A stretch of DNA of 64,000 nt from Pontibacter liquoris (GTDB taxonomy: Bacteria; Bacteroidota; Bacteroidia; Cytophagales; Hymenobacteraceae): contig NZ_JALEBG010000001.1 of assembly GCF_022758235.1 (NCBI RefSeq), forward strand, positions 2,170,001 to 2,234,000, read 5' to 3'. The notes beneath the pieces are model-generated. The model was not told the DNA's origin. It was given only the letters and a program-made list of their open reading frames with translations, and did not search any database. Made by a program: the position numbers and the translations under genes. This document shows, piece after piece, positions 796 to 25,218 of the stretch; within the stretch, counting starts at the first letter, position 1, and each line of letters opens with the position of its first letter.

Positions 796-798
796 TAC

Positions 799-1530: not shown

Positions 1531-1566
1531 ATCACCTGCGGCAACACCCGCTGGCAGAACAGATTT

Positions 1567-1597
1567 AAAAGGATGGCTAAACCCCATCCTTTTTTTA
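1567..1597 (+). terminator. Rho-independent terminator after zinc-ribbon gene
   Basis: A 10-bp perfect stem AAAAGGATGG / CCATCCTTTT with a 7-nt loop, followed by a T-run. It sits 36 nt after the zinc-ribbon stop codon. Confidence 0.85.
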
Positions 1598-1748
1598 TGC
1601 CGCTGCCCTGCTCCGGCTACCACGCTGCTGACCGGGAAACATCTAGCCGGACACCATTTTATACTATACGCCCTTACACTAAGTATAAACACGGGGCATA
1701 TGCCGGAAATTGCCTTCCAAAAACATACATCGTTTATTGCGCATACGG

Positions 1749-3038: not shown

Positions 3039-3345
3039 TTGGAAAATTTGAAGTTGTGGAGATTTGGAGATGAAGAAATTTGAAAATGGGAATCGATCCT
3101 TCCGAAATCAAAGGCTTTGTTTGTCACTAGGTATTCGTTAGTACTGCTGCTTTCAACTTATATCAGCTAAACCGATCTTCAAGTCCCTACATCTTCAAAT
3201 TCCCAAATCTCCACCTTTTCTAATTTCCACATTGATCAATCTTCAAATCTCCTAATTTCCAAATCTGCACATTAACTTCCCTGTCATTCTGTCACGGTTT
3301 TAGAAGAGATTATCGTATATTTGCGGCTGTAATAGTAGTAGAAGT
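3039..3345 (+). repeat. Intergenic element of short repeated words in inverted arms
   Basis: No gene in these 307 nt. The left part (about 3037-3090) is built of variations on GAGATTTGGAGATGAAG and AAATTTGAAAATGG. The right part (about 3175-3272) is built of their complements (CTTCAAATTCCCAAATCTCC, CTAATTTCC, CTTCAAATCTCC). The two arms could fold back on each other imperfectly. Related elements lie at 4777-4860 and 25219-25394. The last 50 nt hold the candidate miaB promoter. Confidence 0.6.
3316..3323 (+). promoter_or_regulatory. Candidate -7 promoter element for miaB
   Basis: TATATTTG matches the Bacteroidota housekeeping -7 consensus TAnnTTTG, 23 nt before the miaB ATG. No good TTTG -33 box is found 19-21 nt upstream, so support is moderate. 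Confidence 0.45.
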
Positions 3346-4776
3346 ATGGAGCCTATCGTTGATTTAGATTTTATAGATAACCGCACCCCGGAGCAGGCAG
3401 CGGCTTGTGACACCCACGTTACCACAGAATCCAATACCGGCAAAAGCCGCAAGCTGTACATAGAAAGCTACGGCTGCGCCATGAACTTCTCTGATTCAGA
3501 GATCGTTTCGTCGATCATGTTCGAGCAGGGCTTTGATACGACCGCTGATATTGCGCAGGCCGATGTTGTGTTTCTCAATACATGCTCTATTCGAGAAAAA
3601 GCAGAACAGACGGTGCGGAACCGCCTGGGCCAGATCAACTATTTCAAAAAGAAGAAACCTGATATGCTCGTCGGCGTGCTGGGCTGCATGGCCGAGCGCC
3701 TTAAAAAATCCCTGCTCGACGAAGAAAAGATCGTGGACCTGGTAGTTGGCCCGGATGCATACCGCGACCTGCCCAACCTGATCAACGAAGTGGATGGCGG
3801 CCAGAAGGCCGTGAACGTGCTGCTCTCCCGCGAAGAAACCTATGCCGACATCAGCCCGATCCGCCTGAACAGCAATGGCGTGAGCGCCTTTATCTCCATC
3901 ATGCGCGGCTGCGACAACATGTGCTCGTTCTGCGTGGTGCCCTTTACGCGCGGCCGGGAGCGCTCACGCGATGCCCATTCGATTGTGCGTGAAGCGGAGA
4001 CGTTGGTGGCGCAAGGCTATAAAGAAGTGACGCTGCTGGGCCAGAACGTGGACTCGTATAAGTGGACCTCAGAAGATGGTACTGAAAGCGTTAATTTTGC
4101 GAACCTGCTGGAGAGAGTTGCGCTGCTGTCGCCGGACCTGCGCGTACGCTTCTCTACTTCCCACCCCAAAGATATTACCGACGAGGTGCTGTATACCATG
4201 AAGCAGTATGACAACATCTGCAAGTATATTCACCTGCCGGCCCAAAGCGGCAACTCGCGCGTGCTGGAACTGATGAACCGCACCTATGACCGCGCCTGGT
4301 ACCTGAACCGGGTAGATGCCATCCGAGCCATACTTGGCGAGGACTGCGGCATTTCCAGCGATATGATTGCCGGCTTCTGCTCCGAGACCGAGGAAGAGCA
4401 CCAGGATACGCTCTCGCTCATGGACTATGTGCAGTACGATTACTCTTACATGTTCTTTTATTCGGAAAGACCGGGCACGCTGGCCGCACGCAAACTAGAG
4501 GATGACGTGCCGCTGGAAGTAAAAAAACGCCGCCTCGACGAGATCATCAACAAGCAGCGCGAAACCTCGCTGGCCCGCAACAAGCGCGATATCGGCAAAG
4601 TGCACAAAGTGCTGGTGGAGGGATTTTCCAAAAAGTCGAAAGAGCAGCTGAGCGGCCGCAACGATCAGAACAAAGTCGTTATTTTCGATAAGAAGCATTA
4701 CCAAAAAGGCGACTACGTCAACGTGTTCGTGCACGACTGTAGTGTAGGCTCCCTTTTTGGCGAAGCGGTAGATTAG
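3346..4776 (+). CDS. miaB: tRNA-2-methylthio-N6-dimethylallyladenosine synthase MiaB
   Basis: A 476-residue radical-SAM methylthiotransferase that converts i6A37 to ms2i6A37 in tRNAs reading UNN codons. The N-terminal UPF0004 domain has its three cluster cysteines at C44, C80 and C114. The radical-SAM domain has the CxxxCxxC cluster at C189, C193 and C196 ([10 protein letters not shown]). A TRAM-like C-terminal domain follows (about 410-470). The first ~33 residues are a low-conservation extension. The iron-sulfur ligands are complete, so the enzyme should be active. It is followed at once by a repeated-word hairpin and then the sigma-54 regulator. Confidence 0.96.
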
Positions 4777-4860
4777 ATTTGGAAATTGGAAGATGCGAAA
4801 ATCTGAAAATTATACTTCAGAGCATCTTCCAATCTCCACATTTCCAAATCTTCAAATCTG
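4777..4860 (+). repeat. Repeated-word inverted element between miaB and the sigma-54 regulator
   Basis: Contains a perfect 11-bp inverted repeat, TTGGAAGATGC (4786-4796) and GCATCTTCCAA (4822-4832), with a 25-nt loop. Flanking words repeat the theme (ATTTGGAAA; TTTCCAAATCTTCAAAT). It begins at the miaB stop codon. There is no T-run, so it is not a standard terminator. Confidence 0.6.
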
Positions 4861-4864
4861 ATAA

Positions 4865-6136
4865 ATGCGCAACATAGATATTCAAAGTATAAAACAGCGT
4901 TTCGGGATCATTGGTAACTCGCCCCAGCTCAACTATGCCATTCAGGTGGCTGTGCAGGTGGCGCCAACCGATATGACCGTGCTCATTAGCGGGGAAAGCG
5001 GTAGCGGAAAGGAATCCTTTTCCAAGATCATTCACCAGCTTAGCCCCCGTAAGCACGGCCAGTTCATTGCTATTAACTGCGGCGCTATTCCGGAAGGAAC
5101 GATCGATTCAGAGCTGTTTGGTCATGAAAAAGGCTCTTTTACCGGTGCACAGGAAGCTCGCAAAGGCTATTTTGAAGTAACTGACGGCGGCACAATCTTT
5201 TTAGATGAGATTGGTGAGATGCCGCTGGGCACGCAGGCACGCCTGCTGCGCGTGCTCGAAAATGGCGAATTCATCAAAGTAGGCTCCTCCAAAGTACAGA
5301 AAACGGATGTGCGGGTAGTAGCCGCCAGCAATGTCAACCTGCTGAATGCCGTAGAAAAAGGGCAGTTCCGCGAAGACTTGTACTACCGGTTAAATACGGT
5401 TCCGATCTCGGTGCCTCCGCTCCGCGAGCGGGGCGACGATATTTACCTATTGTTCCGCAAGTTTGCCAGCGATTTTTCTGACAAGTATAAGGTAAAACCC
5501 ATAGAGCTGACACACGAAGCCGTACAGGAGCTGCTTGGCTTCCGCTTTCCAGGCAACATACGCCAGCTTAAGAATATTGTAGAGCAGATCTCGGTGCTCG
5601 AGTATGACCGCGAAGTGGATGCCGACAAGCTGCGGCACTACCTGCCCCGCGAACAAAGCGGACTGCCAGCCATACTTAAGAAAGAGAACCCTTCGGATCA
5701 GCACATTTCGGAACGCGACCTGCTCTATAAAGTGTTGTTCGATATGCGGCGCGATGTGTCGGATCTTAAAAAGCTGGTGTATGAGATGATGGCCCATCAG
5801 CCAAACGATGAGGAACTGCTCAAAGAACACGGGCATTTGTTCGATAACCTGGAGCAGTACAACAGCCGGAGCTTTCAGCCTGCAGAGCCCAAGCACACCG
5901 AGCCATACTACCTGCCGGTAAAGCAGAGCCAGCCGCACGGGTACGAGGACCAGAAAGTAGAAGACATTCCACACGAAACCGAAGAGGAAAGTCTCTCGCT
6001 GGAAGACAAAGAAAAAGAGCTGATCATGAAAGCATTGAAAAAGCACCATAACAAGCGGAAGTATGCCGCGCAGGACCTGGGCATTTCGGAAAGAACCCTT
6101 TACCGCAAATTAAAGCAGTATGATATTGAAGAATAA
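4865..6136 (+). CDS. Sigma-54 interaction domain transcriptional regulator (no receiver domain)
   Basis: A 423-residue enhancer-binding protein. The AAA+ domain begins almost at the N-terminus: Walker A GESGSGKE (43-50), the sigma-54 contact loop GSFTGA (90-95, Ser in place of the more usual Ala), and Walker B IFLDEIGEM (111-119). A charged, probably flexible linker (about 270-370) leads to a C-terminal Fis-type helix-turn-helix (about 380-421, KYAAQDLGISERTLYRKL). There is no N-terminal receiver, PAS or GAF domain, so activity may be set by expression or by a partner. It overlaps lptE by 17 nt, suggesting translational coupling. The regulator-lptE-TPR-secG order recurs in Cytophagales genomes. 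Confidence 0.92.
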   Translation: MRNIDIQSIKQRFGIIGNSPQLNYAIQVAVQVAPTDMTVLISGESGSGKESFSKIIHQLSPRKHGQFIAINCGAIPEGTIDSELFGHEKGSFTGAQEARKGYFEVTDGGTIFLDEIGEMPLGTQARLLRVLENGEFIKVGSSKVQKTDVRVVAASNVNLLNAVEKGQFREDLYYRLNTVPISVPPLRERGDDIYLLFRKFASDFSDKYKVKPIELTHEAVQELLGFRFPGNIRQLKNIVEQISVLEYDREVDADKLRHYLPREQSGLPAILKKENPSDQHISERDLLYKVLFDMRRDVSDLKKLVYEMMAHQPNDEELLKEHGHLFDNLEQYNSRSFQPAEPKHTEPYYLPVKQSQPHGYEDQKVEDIPHETEEESLSLEDKEKELIMKALKKHHNKRKYAAQDLGISERTLYRKLKQYDIEE

Positions 6137-6647
6137 CAACCGTCTGATCCTTTGTATGTGCTCCCTGGTGCTGCTTTTGTGCGGCGGCTGTGGCGTATAC
6201 TCCTTTTCCGGTACCAGCATCAGCCCCGATGTGAAATCTATTTCCATCCAGACCATCGAGAACAGCAGCGGCCAGGGGCCGTCTAACCTGACGCAGATCG
6301 TAACCGATAACTTTAAAAATTATTATCGCCGGAATTCGAATTTGACGGTTTTGCAGTCTAACGGCGATTTGCAATTGGAAGGCCAGATTGTTAGCTTTAC
6401 CATTACACCAGCAGCCATCCAGCGGGAGGGCCTTGAAGATCGTGCGGCCCTGAACCGACTGACCCTTGGCATCCAGGTGCATTACACAAATACCAAGAAC
6501 CCGGATGAAAGCTTTGACCGGCTTTTTTCCATTTCCGAAGACTTTGCCCAGGACGTGGATATTACGCGTATCCCCACCTCAGCTATCGAAAGCCTGTCAG
6601 ATCGCCTGATAGCCGATGTGTTTAATAAAACTGTTGCCAACTGGTAG
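6120..6647 (+). CDS. lptE: LptE-like LPS-assembly lipoprotein
   Basis: A 175-residue lipoprotein. A hydrophobic signal (residues 8-20) runs into LLCGGCGVYSFSG, with C24 the likely lipidated cysteine. The Bacteroidota LptE family (LptE/RlpB-like) typically begins CGVYSFSG after processing and has the mixed alpha/beta body seen here. LptE plugs the LptD barrel that inserts lipopolysaccharide into the outer membrane. Its start lies inside the 3' end of the regulator gene. It probably shares a transcript with the regulator and the TPR-like protein. Confidence 0.85.
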   Translation: MILKNNNRLILCMCSLVLLLCGGCGVYSFSGTSISPDVKSISIQTIENSSGQGPSNLTQIVTDNFKNYYRRNSNLTVLQSNGDLQLEGQIVSFTITPAAIQREGLEDRAALNRLTLGIQVHYTNTKNPDESFDRLFSISEDFAQDVDITRIPTSAIESLSDRLIADVFNKTVANW

Positions 6648-6685
6648 TATACCGTCAGGTTTAATTCGTTACAAATTGTTTTTAC

Positions 6686-7996
6686 ATGAATAAATCGGCT
6701 TTTCTTAAACTAATACAAGAGGTATCGAATATTTCGGACCAGCAGACAGAAGAGCTGGAGAAGGTTGCTGCGACCTTCCCCTACTGCCAGACGGCACACC
6801 TGTTACTAGCCAAATCGGCTTACGACAAAGGCAGTATGCTGTCTACCCAGCGCCTGCGCCGCGCTTCTGCCTATGCCACAGACCGGCAGCTGATGAAGCG
6901 CCTGATCTATACATCTCCTGCCCCCCTTCCCGTATTCGAAGAGCCCGAAGCACAGGAAATTAAACCAGAAGAAACACGCGAACTACAGGCAATTAACAAC
7001 TCTGCTCTAGAGGAGATTACAGAAACAACGGAGGACTTTATTACTGCGCCGGAAGCTGTTATACCAGCCGAAACAGAATATGACACCCCGGCAGAAATAG
7101 CAGAGATAAGTGATGGCAATGCTCAAGAGGAGATAGCGCTGCCGGAAGCATCAAAACCGATTGCAGAACAGCCGCCGGTACGGGTGCCTACCGAGCAGGA
7201 ATTGATGGATGCCGAACTGGCAAAACTGCTGACCATCAACAGCCTGAGTGCCTCTTTTACTGACTTACTGGCCCAGAAACCGGATGTAGTACCACCATTA
7301 GCCAGCAATTCCTTTATAACTGGGGCGCCTGAAGTGACCCATTTGCAGGAAACACGGGAAGCCCTAGAGGAACTACCGCAGGAGGAAGAAGCACCGGAAC
7401 AAGATCCTGCCATTGCGGCAACGGAGGAGTATACTTTTGTGCCGCTTAAAACGCTGCCGGAAGAAGAACTTCTTGCCGCGTTTGCCTTACCTGCCAACCC
7501 GGAAGCAGCCGAAATCAAGTACCGCTACGATGTCATCGATAAGCTATACGACGAAGACGTGCTGGGCTATGGGATGGCCTCCAGCCGCATGGGCGAAGCG
7601 CTGCAGCTGAAAGATGACATTACTCCCCCGCGACCTTTGGGCTTCCACCCGGAGCTTATTCTGGAGTACAGCAAAACACATGAACTGGAAAAAGCCACGC
7701 CGGCTAGTGAAGATGTACTGGTGCAGCAACTTGATATCATTGACCAGTTTCTAAAGCTTAACCCTCGGTTAAAAGCCCTGAATAATATCAAATTACGCTC
7801 CGAGCCGCAAGAAGACCTCTCGCTGCGGAACAGCAAGATAAAGAAAGGCATAGCCTCGGAGAGCCTGGCAAATATCTTTCTGCAACAGGGAAAAATAAAG
7901 AAAGCCATTAAAATATATGAGCAGCTCATTTTGAAAAATCCGGAAAAAAAGAGTTACTTTGCCGAACAGATAGAAAAATTACAAAACTTAACCTAA
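6686..7996 (+). CDS. TPR-like conserved hypothetical protein of the lptE-secG cluster
   Basis: A 436-residue protein with no assigned function. The N-terminus (1-70) is helical, with paired-helix character around FPYCQTAHLLLAKSAYDKG, as in tetratricopeptide repeats. Residues about 80-290 are acidic, Pro/Glu/Ala-rich and probably disordered. The C-terminal 90 residues contain a clear TPR-like helix pair (SLANIFLQQGKIKKAIKIYEQL). It starts 38 nt after lptE and ends 1 nt before secG, so its position is conserved with envelope and secretion genes. No signal peptide is visible, so it is probably cytoplasmic. Confidence 0.75.
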   Translation: MNKSAFLKLIQEVSNISDQQTEELEKVAATFPYCQTAHLLLAKSAYDKGSMLSTQRLRRASAYATDRQLMKRLIYTSPAPLPVFEEPEAQEIKPEETRELQAINNSALEEITETTEDFITAPEAVIPAETEYDTPAEIAEISDGNAQEEIALPEASKPIAEQPPVRVPTEQELMDAELAKLLTINSLSASFTDLLAQKPDVVPPLASNSFITGAPEVTHLQETREALEELPQEEEAPEQDPAIAATEEYTFVPLKTLPEEELLAAFALPANPEAAEIKYRYDVIDKLYDEDVLGYGMASSRMGEALQLKDDITPPRPLGFHPELILEYSKTHELEKATPASEDVLVQQLDIIDQFLKLNPRLKALNNIKLRSEPQEDLSLRNSKIKKGIASESLANIFLQQGKIKKAIKIYEQLILKNPEKKSYFAEQIEKLQNLT

Positions 7997-7997
7997 T

Positions 7998-8390
7998 ATG
8001 TATATCGCCCTTATCAGCATTATTATCTTTGTTTGCGTGCTGCTTATTTTAGTGGTACTTGCCCAAAATCCTAAGGGAGGCGGCCTGTCTGGCCAGTTTG
8101 GAGGCAGCACCAGCCAGCTTGTAGGTGTTAAGCGCACCGGCGATTTACTGGAAAAACTTACCTGGGGATTTGCTATCGCCTTGATCGTAATGTCGTTGGG
8201 CTCACACATGGTTGATTCCTCTTCTGAAGATTCTTCGATCATGAACAGAAGCGTGAACGAAGAGCGCGCGCGCCAGTCGCAGTTACCATCTGCTACACCA
8301 GCTTTGCCAGGAGCTGCTGCCGATTCTACGGCTGTTATCCCCGACCCGGCTGACATTCCGGCCGTAGTAGATACCACAAAGCAAAAATAG
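7998..8390 (+). CDS. secG: Preprotein translocase subunit SecG
   Basis: A 130-residue protein with two membrane helices (about 2-20 and 52-70) joined by the SecG hallmark NPKGGGLSGQFGGS. It is the accessory subunit of SecYEG. The Ser/Ala/Pro-rich C-terminal tail of about 50 residues is longer than in E. coli and typical of this phylum. The start follows the previous stop by 1 nt, indicating tight coupling. Confidence 0.93.
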   Translation: MYIALISIIIFVCVLLILVVLAQNPKGGGLSGQFGGSTSQLVGVKRTGDLLEKLTWGFAIALIVMSLGSHMVDSSSEDSSIMNRSVNEERARQSQLPSATPALPGAAADSTAVIPDPADIPAVVDTTKQK

Positions 8391-8414
8391 GCATCGCCCT
8401 TATAACAATACCTG

Positions 8415-8450
8415 AAAGCCAGCTGAACCCTCAGCTGGCTTTTCTTTTTT
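8415..8450 (+). terminator. Terminator after secG
   Basis: A perfect 12-bp stem AAAGCCAGCTGA / TCAGCTGGCTTT with an ACCC loop and a T-rich tail. It ends the operon running from the sigma-54 regulator (or miaB) to secG. Confidence 0.9.
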
Positions 8451-8660
8451 AGCCCTTGCCCGCCTGGGCTGCCAAACCTGACAGACCGCTTGCTCTCCGC
8501 AACCGCCGGCTGCCAAATATGTCAAACCTGTCAGGCAGGTGGCCGTTATTAACTGAAAATTTGACTTAATGTGGCAGTTAGGCCAGCGTGGCACAAGAAA
8601 TGATAATACACCTGTGGTTTCAATGTTTAATATCAACCATAAAATTATAACTCACAAACT

Positions 8661-8951
8661 ATGTCAATCAGTATTAAACCATTAGCAGACAGAGTAATTG
8701 TAGCTCCTGCTGCAGCAGAAGAAAAAACCAAATCAGGTATCATTATTCCTGATACTGCTAAAGAGAAACCTCAACGTGGTGAGGTAGTAGCCGTAGGCGA
8801 AGGAAAAGTATCAGAGCAGGGCGCTTTGATGAAGCCTCAGGTGAAAGTAGGTGACCAGGTATTGTACGGCAAATATGCCGGCTCTGAGATCTCCGTAGAT
8901 GGTAGCGACTACCTGATCATGCGCGAGTCAGACATCCTGGCTATCCTTTAA
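8661..8951 (+). CDS. groES: Co-chaperonin GroES
   Basis: A 96-residue Cpn10. It shows the family start (KPLADRVIV), a mobile-loop region ([18 protein letters not shown]) and the C-terminal strand [12 protein letters not shown]. It forms the heptameric lid for GroEL. The 210 nt upstream carry no TAnnTTTG element and no CIRCE-like repeat that I can see, so the heat-shock control site is not identified. It is followed by groEL after 37 nt. Confidence 0.98.
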
Positions 8952-8970
8952 TCTTATCTCATTAACGTAA

Positions 8971-10623
<1,653 letters not shown>

Positions 10624-10642
10624 TCTGCCATTCTTATTTAAT

Positions 10643-10690
10643 CATACAAAAACACCCTGCGTCAGTTTTGGCGCAGGGTGTTTTTGTATG
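10643..10690 (+). terminator. Strong terminator after groEL
   Basis: A perfect 19-bp inverted repeat (10643-10661 with 10672-10690) with a 10-nt loop. The core is ACACCCTGCG / CGCAGGGTGT, ending in a T-run inside the right arm. The A- and T-rich outer parts mean it could work in both directions. Confidence 0.92.
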
Positions 10691-10699
10691 TGATGCCTT

Positions 10700-11360
10700 T
10701 ATACTTGGTAGTTGCTGGTAAATGCTTCGGTTTATACTTGAGGCTATACTTGCTGGCCGCTGTATTGCTGTGTTTTATACTTGTGCCTATACTTAGTTGC
10801 AGCTATTTCACTGATTATATATTTCCAGCTATACTTCTTAGCTAGCCTTTGATGCTCCTTTATACTTTGGTTATACTTGCTAGCTGCCTTTCTTCCGTAG
10901 TTTTATACTTCCGGTTATACTTGGTAGCTGCCTTAATTTCAGTTTAAACTGTAGCTATACTTGCTAGCAAGCTGTATTCCTCAGTCTTATACCTGCCTCG
11001 TTTCATTTCTTATTTTGGAGCGCACCAAGCCCGCGGGGGCTCGTCCTTTCGTTTCGCGCTGTGGCGTGAAGCTGCTCCTCGCTCGCGCTGCGGGCTGACC
11101 TGACGGGCACCGCAACACACCAAGGCGCTCAACCCGAGGACTGAGACCTGTTCGCTAGCTACTGTATTTTGCAATCAGCCCCTTGTAGGGACAGGTCGCG
11201 ACCTGTCCGCCCAATAGCATTCGCAATGAAAGTATAGCCTAAGTATAAGTATGAACCTTCTCTCCTGACTTCTTTATTTTTGTCATCCTGAAAGGATCTT
11301 GGTGGAAAGTTTATTAGGCCAAAACTACAGCGTTTATACTTCAACATAAGCAATGACAGG
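10700..11360 (+). repeat. Dispersed non-coding repeat, copy 1 (TATACTT array plus structured core)
   Basis: No gene between 10624 and 11479. The segment has three parts. First, a degenerate tandem array (10700-10962) with 11 exact TATACTT heptamers in pairs 11-12 nt apart, the pairs recurring every ~42-43 nt. Second, a GC-rich core (about 11018-11145) able to form a hairpin. Third, a tail with the perfect palindrome GGACAGGTCGCGACCTGTCC (11189-11208), a TCATCCTGAAAGGATC motif (about 11283) and a final TTTATACTTCAAC. The whole order recurs in inverse orientation at about 26990-27750, with the same landmarks. The remaining ~120 nt up to 11479 show nothing recognisable. Confidence 0.85.
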
Positions 11361-11479
11361 CCTGCCTCCTTAGCCAAGCGGGGTCAGGAGCGGTTGGACC
11401 CGGTACTACTTCTCTAATTCTATAGCAAGAACCCTCAGCCGAGCTCTCTCCTATATTAGTAAAAGCAAAAATAAAAAGG

Positions 11480-12073
11480 CTACTTCATTTCCCGGATCAA
11501 GATGGTGATATCGTGCGGCGCGGGTTCGTCGCCACCAAAGTAAGGATATAACTGGTAGCCTGCTGCTACTCCTGCGCAGGAACGGGGAAGCGTCACCTGT
11601 TTGTCATGCAAGAAGAAGGTATAGGAGCGCTCGCCCATCGTCAGTGTGCAAGCTGTCTTCTGCCCGATCACCATATTCCCGATGTAAGCCGACTGCCGTT
11701 TGCCGTCCACATAAGTATAAGCATGCAGTTCGAGCTGGTTGTTATACCAACGCCAGCCAAACCTGGCGCTGTTCTGCTGGTGTGCTTGGCCGCAATCAGC
11801 TACCCCGTAAAGCTTATTGATATCGCCTTGATTGGCAGGATCTGCTGTGGTATAAATGGCCGAGCTATCAAACGTCACTTCAAAGCGGATTTCTAAAACC
11901 GCTGTTTTCCGGAAAGGATTGGATGTGGCATAATGTTGTCCTTTTTTGATCAGGTAGGTTACTGCGACAGGTGCGGGCTCCGGTGAGGCGGTAGCCTCCT
12001 CCTCGTCGCCCTGGCAGGCGCCAAGCAGCAGGCAAATCAGCGCCGGCACGTACCATGTTTGGAGTCTCTGCAT
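11480..12073 (-). CDS. Putative lipoprotein of unknown function
   Basis: A 197-residue protein. The signal peptide (residues 8-19, ALICLLLGA) ends in a lipobox with C20 (LLGAC), followed by an acidic linker (QGDEEEATASPEPAP). The mature domain appears beta-rich and contains two or more cysteines that could pair (ADCGQ, KTACTL, RSCAG). I do not recognise a family. It is transcribed alone: the repeat lies downstream, and the terminator of the peptide transporter lies upstream. Confidence 0.7.
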   Translation of the reverse strand: MQRLQTWYVPALICLLLGACQGDEEEATASPEPAPVAVTYLIKKGQHYATSNPFRKTAVLEIRFEVTFDSSAIYTTADPANQGDINKLYGVADCGQAHQQNSARFGWRWYNNQLELHAYTYVDGKRQSAYIGNMVIGQKTACTLTMGERSYTFFLHDKQVTLPRSCAGVAAGYQLYPYFGGDEPAPHDITILIREMK

Positions 12074-12173
12074 CCGGAATACAGCTATACTTGTCCTTGT
12101 TCTTTCCTTCAGCTGTCGTTAATTTTATCTGAAGGAGCCGAATTTTAAAACGATGCGTGCGCATTTTGGTTCA

Positions 12174-12212
12174 TAAAAAAAGCTCCTGCCGTTACCACGA
12201 CAGGAGCTTTTG
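12174..12212 (-). terminator. Terminator of the POT transporter gene
   Basis: A stem of AAAAGCTCCTG / CAGGAGCTTTT with a 12-nt loop. Read on the minus strand it is followed by a run of seven T, 22 nt after the transporter stop. Confidence 0.85.
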
Positions 12213-12233
12213 AATTTATACTAAAGCCAGAGA

Positions 12234-13676
12234 TTATCCGCGGCCGTGCATCATATACATCAGCTTGCGGGTAAGGGCCACCAGTATCAAACCAGCTACA
12301 ATCACAAATACGCCGATAGTAGAGAAAATGGTGAATGCACCAAGCTCTTCTACATAAGAAGCGATGTAACCACCGGCGATCTGGGCCACAAACGGCGCCA
12401 GGAACCACACACCCATCAGCATCGATACCAGCGTAACCGGCGCCAGGCGTGTTACCATCGACAGTCCGATTGGGGACAGGCAAAGCTCACCGATTGTATG
12501 AAAGAAGTATGTGGCGATCAACCACATGATGCTTGCTTTCACCGCTTCATCCTCTACGCCGCCACGCTGCATCACAGCGCCCACCATAAAGAAGAAACCA
12601 ATTCCGAGCAGAATCATACCAACGCCCATTTTGGTTGGAATGCTTAGGTCTTTGCCGCGCTTGGATAAGTAGATCCAAAGGTTGGCTGTAAGCGGAGCAA
12701 ACGCTACAATAAACAGCGGGTTAACAGACTGGAACCAGGAAGTCGGGATCAGGAAGCCAAACACTTCACGGTCAATATACTTGTCGGTATAAAGCGTCAG
12801 GGAGCTGCCCGCCTGCTCAAAACCGGCCCAGAAGAAAATCACAAACACGGTAATGATAAAGATAACCGATACACGGTCCACTTCTTCTTTGGTAAGCTTG
12901 GTTTTGGTGGGTTTCCCTGTCAGAGCATCATTCTCCACTTTTACAGGCTTCAGACCAATATCCCCCAGGTATTTCTGGCCAAGTGTGTTAAATACGATCT
13001 GGCCGATAACCATGCCTATACCGGCTGCCAGGAAACCAAACTGGAATCCGTAATGCGTTACGCGCTCTACGCCATTCACAATGGCTTTGGTGGCAAACAG
13101 GTCTTCGGCAAGATAACCACAGATAAGCGGAGCAAAGAACGCGCCCACGTTAATACCCATATAGAAGATGGTGAATGCCGAATCGCGGCGCGGGTCGCCC
13201 TGTGCATACAGGTTACCCACAATAGATGAAATGTTAGGTTTAAAGAAACCGTTCCCCAGAATCAGCAAAGCAAGCCCCAGATACGTCATCTCCACGCCTA
13301 TGTAAGGCGTCGAAAATAAGCTGAACTGGCCCAGGGCCATGGTAACACCCCCGATGAGGATCGCGCGCCGATGGCCTAAGTACTTATCGGCTAACCATCC
13401 GCCGGCGATAGGCGTAAGATATACCAGGCCGGTGAACCAGCCGTAGATCAGGGTGGCGTTAGCTTCGCTAAAACCCAACCCGCCTTCGATGACTGTTTTA
13501 GAGAGGTAAAGCGTTAACAGACCACGCATACCGTAGTAACTGAAGCGCTCCCAAAGCTCCGTGAAAAACAAAAGGTACAGCCCTTTCGGATGCTTTTGCT
13601 TTCCCTTTGCCACTGCATCATCTTGGATGTAGCTGTCATTTACCTCTTCGGTAAGGGAATTTTGATTTCCAGACAT
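12234..13676 (-). CDS. POT/PTR family proton-dependent oligopeptide transporter
   Basis: A 480-residue inner-membrane transporter of the proton-coupled di/tripeptide family (MFS fold). The signature ExxERFxYY is intact (E40, E43, R44, F45, Y47, Y48 in TELWERFSYYGM); these residues couple proton and peptide. About 12-13 hydrophobic helices follow, with the usual cytoplasmic loop between the N and C bundles (about residues 220-260, Lys/Thr-rich). It has its own promoter and terminator, so it is monocistronic. The substrate (di/tripeptide) is inferred from the family. Confidence 0.92.
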   Translation of the reverse strand: MSGNQNSLTEEVNDSYIQDDAVAKGKQKHPKGLYLLFFTELWERFSYYGMRGLLTLYLSKTVIEGGLGFSEANATLIYGWFTGLVYLTPIAGGWLADKYLGHRRAILIGGVTMALGQFSLFSTPYIGVEMTYLGLALLILGNGFFKPNISSIVGNLYAQGDPRRDSAFTIFYMGINVGAFFAPLICGYLAEDLFATKAIVNGVERVTHYGFQFGFLAAGIGMVIGQIVFNTLGQKYLGDIGLKPVKVENDALTGKPTKTKLTKEEVDRVSVIFIITVFVIFFWAGFEQAGSSLTLYTDKYIDREVFGFLIPTSWFQSVNPLFIVAFAPLTANLWIYLSKRGKDLSIPTKMGVGMILLGIGFFFMVGAVMQRGGVEDEAVKASIMWLIATYFFHTIGELCLSPIGLSMVTRLAPVTLVSMLMGVWFLAPFVAQIAGGYIASYVEELGAFTIFSTIGVFVIVAGLILVALTRKLMYMMHGRG

Positions 13677-13726
13677 AAATGTTTATAAAAGTTGGTTAGT
13701 GTGATTCGTTAACCTTAAATAAAAAG

Positions 13727-13758
13727 TAAATATATCTTTTTTGACGCATCCCGGCAAA
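13727..13758 (-). promoter_or_regulatory. Bacteroidota-type promoter of the POT transporter
   Basis: On the minus strand: TTTG (13758-13755), a 20-nt spacer, then TATATTTA (13734-13727). This fits the TTTG-N19/21-TAnnTTTG promoter pattern, with one mismatch in the last base of the -7 box. It lies about 50 nt before the start codon. Confidence 0.65.
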
Positions 13759-13802
13759 TATTTTCTGAATCCTACCTTATCAAAACGCAGTAAAATGATT
13801 GA

Positions 13803-13822
13803 ATGAGTATGTACTTACTCAT
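13803..13822. promoter_or_regulatory. Palindromic operator candidate upstream of pckA
   Basis: ATGAGTATGTACTTACTCAT is an almost perfect 20-bp palindrome: only the symmetric pair at positions 8/13 breaks it. It ends 12 nt before the TACTTTTG element, about where a -33 box would be, so a bound dimeric repressor would block RNA polymerase. The shape suggests a TetR- or GntR-type dimer site; the regulator is unknown. Confidence 0.6.
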
Positions 13823-13833
13823 ATTAATTTTTA

Positions 13834-13841
13834 TACTTTTG
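13834..13841 (+). promoter_or_regulatory. Candidate -7 promoter element for pckA
   Basis: TACTTTTG matches TAnnTTTG and lies 51 nt before the pckA ATG, just downstream of the 20-bp palindrome. It overlaps a TATACTT heptamer. Confidence 0.55.
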
Positions 13842-13891
13842 TGCTAAAATTCTGAAACATCCACTTCGCTATTAAAACCTAAAAACATCAC

Positions 13892-15505
13892 ATGAAAGAA
13901 ACTGGCGTAAAATCAAATGCAGTTGGTCTGGAAACCCTAGGCATTCTGGAAGCAAAAGAAGTACTCTGGAACCTGCCTCCTGCAGCTTTGGTGGAAGAAG
14001 CCATTAAAAATGCAGAAGGCTATTTAACGGATACCGGCGCGCTGATGTGCGATACGGGTAAGTTTACCGGCCGTTCTCCCAAAGACCGTTTCATTGTCAA
14101 AGACGAGCGAACGGCGGATACTGTCTGGTGGGGCGACATCAACATTGGGTTTGACCCGGAAAAGTTCGACCTGCTGCAAAAGAAAATGGTGGATTTCCTG
14201 AAAGACCGCAAACTATATGTGCGCGATGCCTATGCCGGCGCCCACCCGGATTACCGCTTAAACCTGCGCATTGTGAACACGCAAGCCTGGCAAAACCTTT
14301 TCTGCCATAACATGTTCCTGCGCCTTACGCCGGAGGAGCTTGCCAGCCATGTGCCCGATTTCACCATCATCTGCGTGCCAGAGTTTTTAGCGGATCCGGA
14401 AGTAGATGGAACGCGGCAGTCCAATTTTGCCATCATTAACTTTACCTTGAACACCATCCTGATCGGCGGCACCGGGTATGCCGGCGAAATTAAGAAAGGG
14501 ATCTTTAGCGTACTCAATTACATGCTGCCACAGGAAAAGAATACCCTGTCGATGCACTGCTCGGCCAACGTAGGCCAAGATGGCGATACAGCCATTTTCT
14601 TTGGCTTATCCGGTACCGGTAAAACTACTTTATCTGCTGACCCGAACCGCGGCCTGATCGGCGATGATGAACATGGCTGGACAGACGATAGCGTGTTTAA
14701 CTTTGAAGGCGGTTGTTATGCCAAGGTAATCGACCTGACCCAGGAAAAAGAACCGCAGATCTGGGATGCCATCACGTTTCCGGCCATTGTAGAAAACACC
14801 CGCTTTGTGCCTGGCACCCGCACCGTAGATTATACCAACAAGTCTGTTACGGAAAATACCCGCACAGCCTACCCGATCGATCATATTGCCAATGCTGTGG
14901 AGCCCTCCCGGGCAGGTATCCCGCAGAACATCTTTTTCCTGACAGCCGATGCCTTTGGGGTTTTGCCTCCTGTTTCGAAGCTGAACACCAGCCAGGCCAT
15001 GTACCATTTCATTTCGGGCTACACGGCTAAGGTAGCCGGTACCGAAGTAGGCATCACCGAGCCTCAAACCACTTTCTCGGCTTGTTTTGGCGCCGCCTTC
15101 CTGCCGCTGCACCCCACCCGCTATGCCGAAATGCTCGGCCGCAAAATGCAGGAAAGCAATGTGAATGTATGGCTGATCAATACCGGCTGGACGGGTGGTC
15201 CTTATGGCATCGGCCACCGCATGAAACTCTCCTATACCCGCGCCATGATCACGGCCGCCCTGCAAGGTGACCTGGAGCAGGTGGCGTATACCATGCATCC
15301 GATCTTCCAGGTTGCCATTCCGGACAGCTGCCCAAACGTGCCAGCCGATATCCTGAACCCGCGCAATACATGGGCCGACAAAGACGCTTATGATGCAAAG
15401 GCATTGGAACTTGCAGCTTCCTTTATCAAGAACTTCTCTAAGTATGCCGATTATGCCAGTGAGGAGATCCTGGCAGGCGCGCCGCACGCTGCCGCAATCG
15501 CATAA
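13892..15505 (+). CDS. pckA: Phosphoenolpyruvate carboxykinase (ATP)
   Basis: A 537-residue ATP-dependent PEPCK that converts oxaloacetate and ATP to PEP, CO2 and ADP in gluconeogenesis. The kinase P-loop GLSGTGKTTLSADP lies near residue 240. The metal- and substrate-binding DDEHGW follows, and the N-terminal FTGRSPKDRF motif is present. Length and motifs are normal for the ATP-type enzyme. The gene is flanked by a candidate operator/promoter and a terminator, so it is probably monocistronic and regulated, plausibly by carbon source. Confidence 0.97.
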   Translation: MKETGVKSNAVGLETLGILEAKEVLWNLPPAALVEEAIKNAEGYLTDTGALMCDTGKFTGRSPKDRFIVKDERTADTVWWGDINIGFDPEKFDLLQKKMVDFLKDRKLYVRDAYAGAHPDYRLNLRIVNTQAWQNLFCHNMFLRLTPEELASHVPDFTIICVPEFLADPEVDGTRQSNFAIINFTLNTILIGGTGYAGEIKKGIFSVLNYMLPQEKNTLSMHCSANVGQDGDTAIFFGLSGTGKTTLSADPNRGLIGDDEHGWTDDSVFNFEGGCYAKVIDLTQEKEPQIWDAITFPAIVENTRFVPGTRTVDYTNKSVTENTRTAYPIDHIANAVEPSRAGIPQNIFFLTADAFGVLPPVSKLNTSQAMYHFISGYTAKVAGTEVGITEPQTTFSACFGAAFLPLHPTRYAEMLGRKMQESNVNVWLINTGWTGGPYGIGHRMKLSYTRAMITAALQGDLEQVAYTMHPIFQVAIPDSCPNVPADILNPRNTWADKDAYDAKALELAASFIKNFSKYADYASEEILAGAPHAAAIA

Positions 15506-15524
15506 CTCCGCAATCTTATCTTTG

Positions 15525-15558
15525 AAGCCTCTCCGCAACCTGCGGGGAGGCTTTTTTT
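15525..15558 (+). terminator. Terminator after pckA
   Basis: A 13-bp stem AAGCCTCTCCGCA / TGCGGGGAGGCTT (one G-T pair) with a 3-nt loop and a T-run, about 20 nt past the stop. Confidence 0.9.
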
Positions 15559-15645
15559 GTTTAAGGCTTTTCCATAGGCGCAAATTCTATACCTTCGTAT
15601 ATTATATAGCCACTTGCCCCTAACGCCCTTAAGCCCCGACTGCCC

Positions 15646-16362
15646 GTGCACATCTTCTATACACCCGACCTGAAAACCGATACCTATACCTTGAATGAGG
15701 AAGAATCGAAGCATTGCACCCGTGTGCTGCGGCTGCAACAGGGCGACATGGTGTCGCTGGTAGATGGCGTTGGCGGGCTTTATACCGCCATCATCCAGGA
15801 TGCGCACCCTAAAAAATGCAGCCTGCAGATCATTGAAAAACAGCTGGAGTATAACAAGCTGCCACACGAAATTCATATTGCCGTGGCGCCAACCAAGAAC
15901 CTGGACCGGATGGAGTGGTTTGTGGAGAAAGCCGTGGAGATAGGTATAAACGAGATCACTTTTCTGTTGTGTGAGCATTCGGAACGCCGGCAACTGCGCC
16001 TGGACCGGCTGGAAAAGATAGCGGTAAGCGCCATGAAGCAGTCGCAGAAAGGCTACCTCCCGCTCTTGCATGAGTTGGTGCCCTTTCAGCATTTTGTGCA
16101 GACCTGCCAGCCCGAGCAGACATTCATCGCTCATTTAGAAGATGATGCCACCAAAGGTATAAAGGAATTTTATAAGCCCGGGCAGCCGCACTGCATCCTC
16201 ATCGGGCCCGAAGGAGACTTCTCTCCGCAGGAGATCGCCCTAGCTTATAATGCCGGCATCCGGCCGGTTACGCTGGGCAAAAGCAGGCTGCGTACCGAAA
16301 CGGCCGCTTTGGTGGCCTGCCACACGCTACATGTACTGCACGATGTGCTGGCCCCGTTATAA
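15646..16362 (+). CDS. rsmE: 16S rRNA (uracil(1498)-N(3))-methyltransferase RsmE
   Basis: A 238-residue SPOUT-class methyltransferase that methylates U1498 of 16S rRNA. An N-terminal PUA-like domain (1-70, ESKHCTRVLRLQQGD) is followed by the SPOUT domain with the knot motifs ILIGPEGDFS and LGKSRLRTETA. The start codon is GTG at 15646, which gives the usual family N-terminus (HIFYTPDL); no in-frame ATG fits. A downstream DUF4159 gene follows after 29 nt. Confidence 0.95.
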   Translation: MHIFYTPDLKTDTYTLNEEESKHCTRVLRLQQGDMVSLVDGVGGLYTAIIQDAHPKKCSLQIIEKQLEYNKLPHEIHIAVAPTKNLDRMEWFVEKAVEIGINEITFLLCEHSERRQLRLDRLEKIAVSAMKQSQKGYLPLLHELVPFQHFVQTCQPEQTFIAHLEDDATKGIKEFYKPGQPHCILIGPEGDFSPQEIALAYNAGIRPVTLGKSRLRTETAALVACHTLHVLHDVLAPL

Positions 16363-16391
16363 AGTATGGCGAACGTTTAAAGCACCGGATT

Positions 16392-17060
16392 ATGAAAAAA
16401 AGCATCCTCCTGTTTCTGCTCTTTGCCGTTGTGGCAGCGCCTGAATTGCTGGCCCAGAACCCGGGCTTTAAAATTGCCAAGCTCAAGTATAACGGCGGCG
16501 GCGACTGGTATGCCAATAAAACTTCGTTGCCCAACCTGATCCAATTTTGTAACCGGAACCTGAACATGAACATCGCCCCCGAAGATGAGGTGGTGGAGGT
16601 CGGAAGCCCGGAATTGTTCAGCTACCCGTTCGTGCATATGACGGGGCACGGGAACGTTGTTTTTTCGGATGCAGAAGCGCAGAACCTGCGCAAATACCTG
16701 CTAAGCGGCGGCTTTCTGCACATCGACGATAACTATGGCTTAGATAAATTTATCAGGCGGGAGATGAAGAAGGTCTTCCCCGAACACGAGTTTGTAGAAT
16801 TGCCTTTTGATCACCCGATCTACAAGCAGAAATTTACGTTTGCGCACGGCCTGCCCAAAATACACGAGCACGATAACAAGCCGCCTCAGGGCTTTGGCAT
16901 CATTCACGAAGGCAGGCTGGTGTGCTTTTATACCTATGAAACGGACCTGGGCAATGGCTGGGAAGACCAGGAAGTATACAACGATCCGGAAGCCAAAAGG
17001 CAGCAGGCCCTGCAAATGGGAGCCAACCTGTTAACCTATGTGCTCACCCATTATCAATAA
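16392..17060 (+). CDS. DUF4159 domain protein, exported
   Basis: A 222-residue protein with a cleavable signal peptide (residues 1 to about 22, ending LLAQN). The rest is a DUF4159 domain, recognisable by FSYPFVHMTGHGNV, LLSGGFLHIDDNYG and HPIY...FAHGLPKIHEHD. It looks like a glutamine-amidotransferase-like Rossmann domain without an obvious catalytic Cys. The function is not established. In this phylum it often lies near MoxR/BatA-type genes, but here it follows rsmE and is probably co-transcribed with it. Confidence 0.88.
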   Translation: MKKSILLFLLFAVVAAPELLAQNPGFKIAKLKYNGGGDWYANKTSLPNLIQFCNRNLNMNIAPEDEVVEVGSPELFSYPFVHMTGHGNVVFSDAEAQNLRKYLLSGGFLHIDDNYGLDKFIRREMKKVFPEHEFVELPFDHPIYKQKFTFAHGLPKIHEHDNKPPQGFGIIHEGRLVCFYTYETDLGNGWEDQEVYNDPEAKRQQALQMGANLLTYVLTHYQ

Positions 17061-17102
17061 GAAGATTTTACCCAGTTTACCGTAATTTATACCTGCTCCG
17101 GC

Positions 17103-17612
17103 TCACTCATACTTGCGCTTAAATATCTCCGATAGTATAAAAGCATCTTTGGCTGTGGTCGGGTTTCGCAAAAGCTCTTTGTAGGGCTGCTGCTTGGCCT
17201 GGACTTTATCGTAAGCATTGAAAGCTACCTGCCGGCGCTGCTGCGACTGCCGTAACACTTGCCGGGCCTCTGCCGGCTTCTCCCACGATAACTCTCTAAC
17301 AGGCATTTCCTCGTAATTTATCACTACGGGCTGCGGCCTGGGTGTAAGTTCCTGCCGCACCTTTTCTTTGGCCGATTGTACCAGCACCTCTCCTTTTGCC
17401 AGCGGCTTTTGCGCTTTTGGCTGTAGCTCCCGCAACATGTCTTCCAGCGAAGTAGCTGGCCTGGGAGGCTGCAGCGGTTTGCCTTTGGAAGTATAGCGGG
17501 TGTCCTCGGGTAGATGGGCGTCGTCGGGTCCTTTAAACGCTTTCAGCCACTTGGTAAAGATCAGATAGGCAACCCCGAGTAAAATATAAAGTATGATTTT
17601 GAAATCTTCCAT
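17103..17612 (-). CDS. Small membrane-anchored hypothetical protein
   Basis: A 169-residue protein of unknown function. A single N-terminal membrane helix (about 4-20, IILYILLGVAYLIFTKW) leads to a basic, Pro/Gln-rich cytoplasmic tail ending in a conserved-looking block (NPTTAKDAFILSEIFKRKY). The longer frame would begin at 17699, but the ATG at 17612 places the helix at the N-terminus, as in similar short Bacteroidota proteins, and is preferred. Convergent with the DUF4159 gene, 42 nt apart. Confidence 0.7.
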   Translation of the reverse strand: MEDFKIILYILLGVAYLIFTKWLKAFKGPDDAHLPEDTRYTSKGKPLQPPRPATSLEDMLRELQPKAQKPLAKGEVLVQSAKEKVRQELTPRPQPVVINYEEMPVRELSWEKPAEARQVLRQSQQRRQVAFNAYDKVQAKQQPYKELLRNPTTAKDAFILSEIFKRKYE

Positions 17613-17975
17613 AGCGTATTTTTCTATTCCAAGATAAGCAATAAAGCAGCCCGATACAAATGGTGGGTCCGGCTTAGTTAGGCGCTCCATATACCACACA
17701 TTAAACGCCTTTTACTGTGCAGCGGGTTCTTCCCGCACCGGGCAGCTCTGGCGCTGAGGTTATACTTTGCTCTTCCAAAAACAGCCCCTGCAAAATGCCA
17801 GCAGCAGAAAGATACAAACTGCGCCATAGCGCTGTATTTGAAGGATTCCATTCTATAACAGGGGCCAAAGTATAAATTTCTTTGCACCACTTCTCAGAAA
17901 TCAGGCGTTCGGTTCATGCAGGTAACTAAAATACCCTTATTTTTGAGTTAGGTTTATAGATTTCCGCTAACGCGA
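17613..17975. other. Gene-free divergent region before smc
   Basis: 363 nt between the divergent small membrane protein and smc. It holds a small GCGGG-TTCTT-CCCGC hairpin (17722-17736), AAGTATA/TATACTT words (about 17761 and 17868) and a TATTTTTG -7-like element at 17938-17945 that could drive smc. No coding potential is apparent. Confidence 0.5.
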
Positions 17976-20900
17976 ATGCAAGTATCAAGATTAGAAATCA
18001 AAGGATTTAAAAGTTTCGGGGACAAGGTTGTTATCAATTTTGATAACGGCATAACCGGGATTGTAGGGCCAAACGGCTGTGGCAAGTCTAACATTGTGGA
18101 TGCCATCCGCTGGGTGCTGGGCGAGCAGAAAACCCGCAACCTGCGCTCTGATAAAATGGAGAACGTGATCTTTAACGGCTCCAAAACCCGTAAACCGGTG
18201 CAGCTGGCCGAGGTGTCGATCACGTTCGACAACAACCGTGGCGTGCTGCCCACCGAGTACTCGCAGGTAACGGTAACCCGCAAATACTACCGCAACGGCG
18301 ACAGCGAGTATATGCTCAACGGCGTCACCTGCCGCCTCAAAGACATCAACGAGCTTTTCCTGGATACGGGCATCGGCTCGGACAGCTACGCCATCATCGA
18401 GCTGAAAATGGTGGATGAGATCCTGAACGATAAGGAAAACTCCCGCCGCCTTTTGTTCGAGGAAGCCGCCGGCATTTCGAAGTTCAAGGTGCGCAAAAAG
18501 CAAACCCTCAAAAAGCTGGAAGAAACCGACGCTGACCTGGAACGCGTGGAAGATGTGCTTTTCGAGATCGGCAAGAACATGAAAACGCTGGAACGGCAGG
18601 CAAAGCAGGCCATCCGGTATTTCCAGTTGAAAGAAGATTACAAGAAACACAGCCTGGAATATGCGCGGCGCAATGTATCCCAGTTTCAACAAACGCTGGA
18701 GCGCCTGGAACAGGATGTGCAGCAGGAAAGCACGTTAAAGGAAAACTATATTGCGGCTGTTACCGAAGCGGAAGAAGCTATTGCAGACCAGAAGCAGGAA
18801 CTGAACCAGACCCAGGAGCAACTGGCCGAGATGCAGAAATCCATGCAGGTGCAAACGGCAAAACTGCGCCAGCTGGAAAATGATATCAAGCTACGTTCCG
18901 AGCGCAGCCTGTTTCTGAAAGAGCGCGTGCAGCAGCTGCGCATGCAGATAAGCCAGGATACGGCTACCCTCGACCATACCCAGCAAAGTATAGCTGACCT
19001 ACGCGAGGAACTGGAAACCGTGCAGGAGCAGTTTGCAGACGCCGAGGAACAGGTTGGCGAGCTGAAAGAGCAGGTGCAGGAAGCAAACGAGCAAAAGATG
19101 ACGCTGCAGGATGCCTTCCAGGAACTGACGCAGCAGCAGAAAGCAAAGCAGAACGAAGTATACCAGCTCAACAAATCACTGGAGATCAGCCAGGTGCAGA
19201 TCCAAAGTATAAACCTGGAGCTGGAGCGTATGCAGCAGCAGCAGCTCACCGCCGACGAAGATGCCCGTTTATTTATGGAGCAACTGCAGGAGGCGCAGCT
19301 TAACCTGGAAGAGCGCACCACCTTGCTTGTGCAATTGCAGGCCCGGGAAGAGTCGCTGCTGGAGAGCATCGAAAAAACAGAGCATGATATTGAAGCGCTT
19401 AAAACGCAACTGGTAGACCTGAACCGGATGCTGGACGCCCGCCAGAATCAGTATACCCTGACCCGCTCGCTGGTCGAGAACATGGAAGGTTTTCCGGAAG
19501 CGATCAAGTTTTTGTGCCAGGCAGAAGGCTGGTCCAAGCGGGCTCCTCTCCTTTCTGATATCATCTCCAGCAAGCCTGATTATAAGCCGCTTATCGAGAG
19601 TTACCTCGAGCCCTACATGAACTTCTTTGTGGTAGATTCGCTAGCTGATGCGCTGGAAGCAACCAGCCTGCTGAAGCAGGAAAACAAAGGGCGCGCCAAC
19701 TTCATCATCCTCTCCGAAGTGGAAGAGCTGGAGCCAACGGCCACTTTCAGCGAAGGCAAACTGGTAGCGGCCTACGAGGTGGTTTCGGCAGATAAGAAGT
19801 ATGGCAGCCTGCTGAAGTATATGCTCAACAACGTATACATCAGCGAGGATACGGAAGACGATTTCTCTTCTGAAGATTACCGCACGATTATTCTTAAAGA
19901 TGGCTCGGCCATCAAAAAGCCGCTGAGCTTATCCGGCGGTACTGTGGGCTTGTTCGATGGTAACCGGTTAGGCCGCAAGCAAAACCTGGCGCAACTGGAA
20001 GAGGAAGTAGCCGCGCTCACCAAACAGGTAGACCTGCTGCAGAGCCGCATTAACACGCAAAACCAGATCCTGCTTAACTATAAAGGAGAGTCGCAGAAAG
20101 AGCCCATCAAACTGATCGAAAAAGAAGTAGCCCGTTTGCAGCAGGACCTGCTCACTGTGCGCATCAAGCATGAGCAGCACCAGCAAAACCAGCGCAACTT
20201 CGATCAGAAGCAGGACGAGCTGCAGGAGCGCCTCTACGCCCTGCGGGAACAAACGCAGGAAGTGTCGCCGCAGGCAGCGGCAGACCAGCAGGAATTGCAG
20301 CGCCTGGAAGAAGAACTGGCCGTTTACACCAACCAGCTCAATCAGCAGCAGGAACAGATCGCGGTGATTTCGGGCAGGTATAACCAGGAAAACATTACGT
20401 TCCATCACCTGAAGAACCGCCTGGCCAGTTTGCAGCAGGAGATCAGCTACAAGCAGAAAACGGTAGAAACAAACCAGGAGCGCATCACCGGTTTTAAACA
20501 GGAATTGGTAAAATCGGAAGAGGAAATTGCCGGAGCAGATAGCTTTATTTTCGAAAATCAGGCCGTGGTGGAAACAATGGTGGAAGCCCGCCGCGAGTAT
20601 GGCTATGAACTGGAGGAGATCGAGAAGCAATACTTTAGCCTGCGCGGCGAGCTGGACGAGAAAGAGAAAGTGATCCGGGAGCTGCAACGCAAACGCCAGA
20701 ATGCCGATGAGTTGCTGATGCGCATGCAGCAGGCCAAAAACGATACGCAGCTCAAGCTGGTGGCTATAAAAGAGCGCCTGGCAGCAGAATTCAATATTTC
20801 GGACGAAGACTTTGCCAGCCCGGCACCGGAAGCCGAACTGCTGATACCCCTCTCGAATGATGAGTTGAGCAAGCACATAGCAGAAACCAAAAGTGCGCTC

Positions 20901-21512: not shown

Positions 21513-21528
21513 TATAATCTTTCGATAA

Positions 21529-22179: not shown

Positions 22180-22236
22180 TGATTTATATTAAGTATAAAA
22201 AGAATAGCTTATTGTGAAAGAAACTTGAGTCTATAC

Positions 22237-24372: not shown

Positions 24373-24374
24373 GC

Positions 24375-25217: not shown

Positions 25218-25218
25218 T

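Follow-up and report, generated by a model that had tools for sequence, protein, structure and literature searches.

The heptamer TATACTT, of which eleven exact copies stand within 263 bp in a non-coding part of the Pontibacter liquoris genome, belongs to a genus-wide, dialect-forming, hyper-abundant DNA word. That Pontibacter possesses such a word, with dialects built around a TATA core, is regarded as near certain. The window, i.e. the whole stretch of 64 kb that was analysed, had been the subject of a preliminary description in which the eleven heptamers were read as a local protein-binding array. Its numbers were right and its interpretation was too local.

All eleven heptamers of the array lie on the forward strand, starting at 10700, 10733, 10745, 10776, 10788, 10830, 10861, 10872, 10904, 10916 and 10956, and the six of a second array were found on the reverse strand (starts 27561, 27593, 27637, 27679, 27720 and 27733). 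Every start given for the eleven proved exact, and the heptamer steps quoted for both arrays were correct. Eleven TATACTT in 263 bp are far beyond chance: 1,000 dinucleotide-preserving shuffles of positions 10690-10970 yielded a mean of 0.29 and a maximum of 3 copies, and 0.37 forward copies are expected in 263 bp from the genome's own intergenic density. The array sits in the space downstream of a gene that we take, from its protein family, to be groEL, and is overlapped by no ORF of 80 residues or more. It forms the 5' part of a dispersed non-coding repeat, for which at least 47 matches at at least 40 places were obtained in the P. liquoris genome when 40 of 137 candidates were scored.

The spacing of the heptamers was compared in 33 non-duplicate copies of the repeat from P. 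liquoris, those for which the retrieved loci include sufficient flank. The array zone covers about 200 bp 5' of the repeat body and its heptamers are mostly forward. Dominant heptamer steps are 11-12, 30-33 and 41-44 bp, and the copies vary in heptamer number and spacing. It had been proposed that all sites lie on one face of the DNA. A helical phase is real but only moderate, with a mean cosine of 0.41-0.47 at 10.5-10.7 bp (331 pairs at most 200 bp apart), a score that arises because the units measure about 43 bp and the sub-steps about 32 and 11 bp. The spacers, described as diverged, have indeed diverged but are not unrelated: among the long spacers, identity over the first 20 bases is 46%, compared with 28% (maximum 37%) after shuffling. 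This indicates that the array consists of diverged tandem units of about 43 bp. Since such units lie inside a dispersed repeat, the period of the array needs no selection for helical phase. The observation that heptamers outlast their spacers held over the 33 aligned copies, with consensus base frequencies of 0.85 in heptamer columns, 0.74 in spacer columns and 0.90 from the body onward; conservation is uneven among the four heptamer slots of this zone (0.91, 0.60, 0.93 and 0.94). That selection acts on the array or its phase as a unit is nevertheless not supported: the period is one that tandem duplication would give, and the word is selected or driven singly, genome-wide.

The GC-rich body of the repeat (Table 1) shows a mean column identity of 87% in an alignment of 12 copies. 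A single long, branched hairpin with 42 pairs is predicted for it; only 2 of these pairs changed on both sides, so that covariation lends the prediction little support. A palindrome adjoins the body, and a similar imperfect palindrome adjoins the second repeat copy. Palindromic modules of two types, GACAGGTCGCGACCTGTC and ATCCTGAAAGGAT, are thus found next to both repeat copies (11189-11208, 11285-11297 and 27260-27380). A scan of the window against Rfam at gathering thresholds returned nothing but two tRNAs, the repeat being without an Rfam match, and the plasmid records searched with the repeat gave no match either. The two tRNA genes stand in tandem with equal scores (26568-26641 and 26696-26769).

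Table 1. Features of the window, with positions counted from its first letter.
Feature	Position	Strand	Basis
groEL (presumed), upstream neighbour of array	8989..10623	+	ORF translation
TATACTT array, 11 exact copies, diverged ~43-bp units	10700..10962	+	sequence, alignment of copies
TATACCT, one mismatch, at last heptamer slot	10989..10995	+	slot consensus TATACTT, mean 0.94, 33 copies
Repeat body, GC-rich, ends approximate	11016..11150	+	conserved among 12 aligned copies
Palindrome GGACAGGTCGCGACCTGTCC adjoining body	11189..11208		sequence
GC-rich body of second repeat copy, ends approximate	27395..27539	-	alignment of copies
Second array, 6 TATACTT	27561..27739	-	sequence
71 TATACTT outside both arrays, scattered	1..64000	both strands	word count

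Counted over both strands, the window has 88 TATACTT where 9.7 are expected, and most of them lie outside the two arrays (Table 1). This implies that the array is merely the densest spot of a genome-wide pattern. In a sample of 464 kb, consisting of the window and 20 stretches of the P. liquoris genome, no 7-mer was more strongly over-represented than TATACTT under an order-1 model (651 versus 41.8 expected, 15.6 times expectation). Under a maximal-order Markov model, which lets sub-words of TATACTT explain TATACTT, the words TTATACT and the 6-mer TATACT stand out and TATACTT falls outside the 20 7-mers listed. The whole genome contains 7,148 TATACTT (3,606 + 3,542) versus 441 copies of the reversed word (223 + 218), at a density of 0.96/kb in coding and 2.85/kb in intergenic DNA. 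Within genes the word occurs in all six frames (51, 42 and 47 on the same strand; 109, 39 and 55 on the opposite one). Codon usage or promoters were rejected as the cause of its abundance, because both strands and all allowed frames are used. The TATAC core is strict, and the enrichment of one-mismatch forms is largely confined to positions 1 (T to C), 6 (T to C) and 7; a sharp word with a strict core suggests a recognised site. The preference in the flanks reaches only one to two bases out (mostly T before the word, hardly ever A) with little beyond, which shows that the words are not fragments of one repeat. Oriented by GC skew, 297 words are leading-like and 354 lagging-like, a slight excess opposite to that of Chi. 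Overlapping inverted words form AAGTATACTT at 30201-30210, 55704-55713 and 63164-63173, and there are 9 such overlaps in the 464 kb.

The word was then followed through the genus, by way of the top words in 40 Pontibacter loci of about 21 kb from named relatives and of whole-genome counts in 50 Pontibacter genomes, two collections that overlap in species. The top words of the loci group as TATACTT, TATAGTT, TATACCT or none. TATACTT exceeds 4,000 copies (both strands summed) in 23 of the 50 genomes and TATACCT exceeds 5,000 in 12. TATAGTT exceeds 3,000 in eight, four of which (G058, G018, G033 and G043) are also high in TATACTT, while in the other four TATAGTT alone is high; the highest count, 13,168 TATAGTT, belongs to a genome of about 4.3 Mb. 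TATACC and TATATA characterize one genome each, as judged from samples, and nine genomes have none of these words, which leaves 41 word-bearing genomes. TATA is common to all dialect words; what varies is the bases after it and the base preferred before it. The apparent fourth dialect, TATACC, has a free next base in genome G113 (L208-L215), where its palindrome GGTATACC reaches 20.6 times expectation. Strain E15-1 (L063) shows TATACC like G113, and the basis for this dialect is thus 160 kb of G113 and 21 kb of E15-1, possibly the same or a near genome. An apparent fifth dialect, the palindromic TATATA, is known from 240 kb of a single genome, G002, in which TATATA is found at 24.5 times and TATATATA at 133 times expectation, with the word present in all 12 sampled stretches (L206, L207, L228-L237). 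The nine wordless genomes were sampled at 20-80 kb each for other words, a depth at which a weaker dialect could escape. One of them, G105 (87% complete), has TATACTT weakly raised (2,905 versus 723). Outside Pontibacter the genome-wide count covered TATACTT alone, which stayed at or below about 2.5 times the count of the reversed word both in 66 genomes from five further genera of the family and in 246 genomes from the rest of the order. A literature search, subscription journals not covered, found no description of the Pontibacter word or its dialects.

Dialects follow the species tree, which was built from 11 proteins of one locus (48 rows, with E15-1 coded as none). The TATACCT group is one clade (support 100) and so is the TATAGTT group (support 94), to which the mixed species (isolate 903) is sister with support 100. 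TATACTT occurs on several deep branches, and the wordless species are likewise found at several points of the tree. Seven dialect changes are needed, compared with 24.9 when the labels are shuffled. On the simplest reading, in which the direction of change is the one we infer, TATACTT dates from early in the genus, changed its spelling on two or more occasions and disappeared several times.

Maintenance of the word was examined in codon alignments of 14 genes around one locus, with 60 letter permutations as control; the comparisons share ancestry and are not independent events. Between relatives that share a dialect, the word is retained at about double the rate of its permuted controls. Among TATACTT species, TATACTT was kept in 1,586 of 3,552 comparisons (0.447 versus 0.229 permuted), and among TATACCT species the figures for TATACCT were 0.579 versus 0.280; for TATAGTT among TATAGTT species the ratio was 1.4 (0.518 versus 0.368). 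TATACTT sites were kept at 0.118 in wordless species (control 0.153) and at 0.110 in TATACCT species (control 0.115), and this contrast between dialect groups lies within one gene set. Retention above control only in species of the same dialect indicates that a word is maintained at its sites only in species that use it as their dialect. Aligned word sites change by substitution, gaps making up 4.3% of 3,970 comparisons. Within the TATACCT clade, TATACTT sites read TATACCT in 7.8% of 3,229 comparisons, the base rate being about 0.06% per position and strand.

The arrays of related genomes were examined as well. With at most 12 candidates scored per genome, the repeat was found in 39 of the 50 Pontibacter genomes, and nine of the 11 without a scored match belong to the TATACCT group. 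Words were counted forward in the 300 bp before the body of 35 copies (L204, which is the same place as L147, was omitted). The 19 copies from TATACTT genomes contain 46 TATACTT, 2 TATAGTT and 2 TATACCT, and the eight from TATAGTT genomes contain 25 TATAGTT, 1 TATACTT and 0 TATACCT. This shows that the repeat carries its host's word in these two groups. Three copies from mixed genomes hold 4 TATACTT and 5 TATAGTT. The three from TATACCT genomes (2 TATACTT, 1 TATACCT), in which the local dialect is not shown, and the two from wordless genomes (0 words) are too few to judge. The preliminary description had looked to related genomes for a retained phase; homologous arrays in the local dialect are a stronger result than conserved phase would be. 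REP/BIME-type elements are dispersed, non-coding, hairpin-forming repeats, and the Pontibacter repeat resembles them in its dispersed, non-coding body with a predicted hairpin. Unlike them, it bears tandem copies of the host genome's word, spelled in the local dialect.

Where the words lie relative to genes was determined with gene calls and gene starts from a simple script. Words inside genes fall in codons of less conserved amino acids (0.713 versus an average of 0.796 in TATACTT species). Convergent gene ends are richest in words in this genome (6.3/kb), in other TATACTT genomes (8.4/kb) and, slightly, in the TATACCT set (4.7/kb), whereas the TATAGTT set has its lowest density there (3.5/kb). 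All four sets show a modest rise in the first tenth of genes (46, 62, 51 and 62 versus means of about 34, 51, 44 and 42) and none in the last tenth. Two word-poor stretches were encountered, and gene content was read for one of them, the island L043 (G000:C1:2600001-2620000), which has 7 TATACTT in 20 kb versus about 28 on average. It encodes a serine resolvase, a DEAD-box helicase, a BrxC/D ATPase, a TerB-C protein, a HerA-type helicase and a SIR2 protein. The other, L197, has 5 TATACCT in 20 kb and a GC content of 0.40, compared with 30-52 TATACCT in five other stretches of TATACCT genomes. The P. actiniarum plasmid NZ_CP021236 (L184-L187) contains 80 TATACTT in 200 kb, about 4 times expectation and a lower density than those of the chromosomes in TATACTT genomes. 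A word-poor defence island agrees with a role of the word in DNA uptake, yet this one checked example is predicted by any slow drive.

Machinery for uptake and methylation was searched for in the 50 genomes. The type IV pilin signature PF07963 was found in none of them at E 0.001. The pilus/T2SS ATPase family PF00437 gave short matches only (at most about 66 of 370 positions), which exceeded the cut-off in three genomes and may represent the P-loop of another ATPase. ComEC is present in all 50 genomes, the wordless ones included, and as it therefore does not track the word it was rejected as a marker. Its reading frame contains one in-frame stop in two of the 50, G046 and G087, in both of which the word is abundant. 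The Dam-type family PF02086, the only methyltransferase family covered, occurs in 13 of the 50 genomes and not in that of P. liquoris. Riemerella belongs to the Bacteroidota. It is described as naturally transformable by means of ComEC, DprA, ComF, RecA and four proteins unlike known machinery, and DUF5689 occurs in a protein that is essential for this transformation (PMC8459023). Transformation by such unlike proteins makes uptake without type IV pili plausible in Bacteroidota. A Riemerella-type DUF5689 was rejected as the driver, since it does not track the word: it was found in 17 of the 41 word-bearing and five of the nine wordless genomes (22 of 50), and not in P. liquoris.

A word that is kept through substitution, inside and outside genes, with clade spellings and a fixed core, points to drive by a DNA-recognising factor. 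The explanation that we favour, tentatively and at a little under an even chance, is that TATACTT is a self-DNA word analogous to DNA uptake sequences and read by a putative recognising factor. The missing pilin, the short ATPase matches and the failure of DUF5689 to track the word are what keep an uptake-type mechanism from being rated higher. TATACTT would be the P. liquoris dialect of a hyper-abundant Pontibacter recognition word with a TATA core, and a sequence-specific DNA-recognising factor that differs between clades would keep it at about 0.8 to 3 copies per kb. DNA carrying the word would be preferentially taken up or recombined, whereby words would spread and be repaired from related cells, and the receptor would be other than a known type IV pilin. 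In the array at 10700-10962, words would have been multiplied by tandem duplication within the dispersed repeat and would keep the local dialect through the process that also maintains single words. We infer a single recognising factor that acts in uptake or recombination. Every positive test, from hyperabundance on both strands and in all frames to dialects, their fit to the tree, maintenance and the local-dialect arrays of two groups, would turn out the same if some other drive acted on the word.

Among uptake sequences, HIP words and Chi, uptake sequences provide the best fit, by analogy. The DUS of Neisseriaceae is described as occurring in thousands of copies per genome (e.g. 5,918 in 2.4 Mb), in clade dialects that match phylogeny around a conserved core, and one genome as carrying two dialects in near-equal numbers (PMC3630211). 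The Pontibacter word resembles DUS, which is read by the minor pilin ComP, in its thousands of copies, its clade dialects, its shared core and its two-dialect genomes. It differs in having 7 bp and a TATA core instead of 10-12 bp and a CTG core, and in belonging to the phylum Bacteroidota; the 50 Pontibacter genomes show neither a type IV pilin signature nor a convincing pilus ATPase. As a genome-wide self word it may also be likened to the USS of Pasteurellaceae, a naturally transformable group. The receptor for USS has been sought among type IV minor pilins (PMC12616744) and USS is reported to be biased to both gene ends (PMC2346458), whereas Pontibacter words are modestly raised at the beginning of genes and not at the end. 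For uptake sequences in general, biased uptake drive has been argued to be sufficient for their build-up (PMC1939737).

Other drives on the same word were weighed against this explanation. A HIP1-like origin, in which the word would be generated and preserved by a DNA methyltransferase and an associated repair bias and would have no role in uptake, is unlikely. The HIP words of cyanobacteria are hyper-abundant, have alternates in some lineages and are low in others (PMC4390886), a pattern of replacement and loss that the Pontibacter word shares; its one-mismatch forms are likewise biased to outer positions, and the TATATA dialect is palindromic. HIPs are, however, palindromes tied to methyltransferases, whereas TATACTT, TATAGTT and TATACCT are not palindromes and PF02086, the one family covered, shows no apparent link to the word and is absent from P. 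liquoris. We consider it just as unlikely that the word is bound by an abundant chromosome-organising protein, or serves as a self mark for a defence or repair nuclease, with the specificity of the clade's protein setting the dialect. A strict core with tolerant edges, as for protein recognition, the intergenic enrichment and the word-poor island L043 would all suit such a role, and the absence of the word from nine of the 50 genomes, in several lineages, argues against an essential architectural one.

The remaining explanations are much less probable. That the heptamers beside groEL form a local binding array with a function of its own and a selected helical phase, as originally supposed, draws on the persistence of the heptamers and on the phase score. 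We regard it as improbable, given that the array belongs to a repeat at 40 or more places, differs in heptamer number and spacing from copy to copy and owes its period to tandem units, and that TATACTT is maintained singly elsewhere. Chi sites show strand polarity, i.e. an orientation bias with replication, and enrichment in coding DNA. A polar recombination word of this kind would, like TATACTT, be short, over-represented and non-palindromic, but the Pontibacter word lacks Chi-like polarity and is enriched between genes, so this identity is very improbable. Least probable of all is that the words are numerous merely as passengers of multiplied repeats. The repeat is dispersed and does bear arrays, but words stand in coding genes in all frames with a flank preference of only two bases, aligned sites change by substitution, and in nine of the 12 TATACCT genomes, for which 12 candidates each gave no scored match to the repeat, the word is still abundant.

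Only a few kinds of hyper-abundant DNA word are known, and they point to processes by which entire genomes are shaped. With slightly greater reserve than for the self-DNA word as such, it is proposed that Pontibacter has a self-recognition word system, comprising at least five TATA-core dialects, up to 13,168 copies per genome, a putative pilus-independent receptor, dialect switching, losses and a repeat that multiplies the word in arrays. The four two-word genomes may then be in the middle of a dialect switch, and by multiplying the word in arrays the repeat may promote its own spread. To our knowledge such a system would be the first outside groups with type IV pili. A word restricted to one genus, with several dialects, mixed genomes and repeated absence, offers natural experiments for finding the factor that reads it. 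Transformation genes of Bacteroidota are only partly known. If the word guides DNA exchange, Bacteroidota would have a sequence-specific uptake that does not depend on type IV pili, and one could directly test how dialects evolve as barriers to gene flow.
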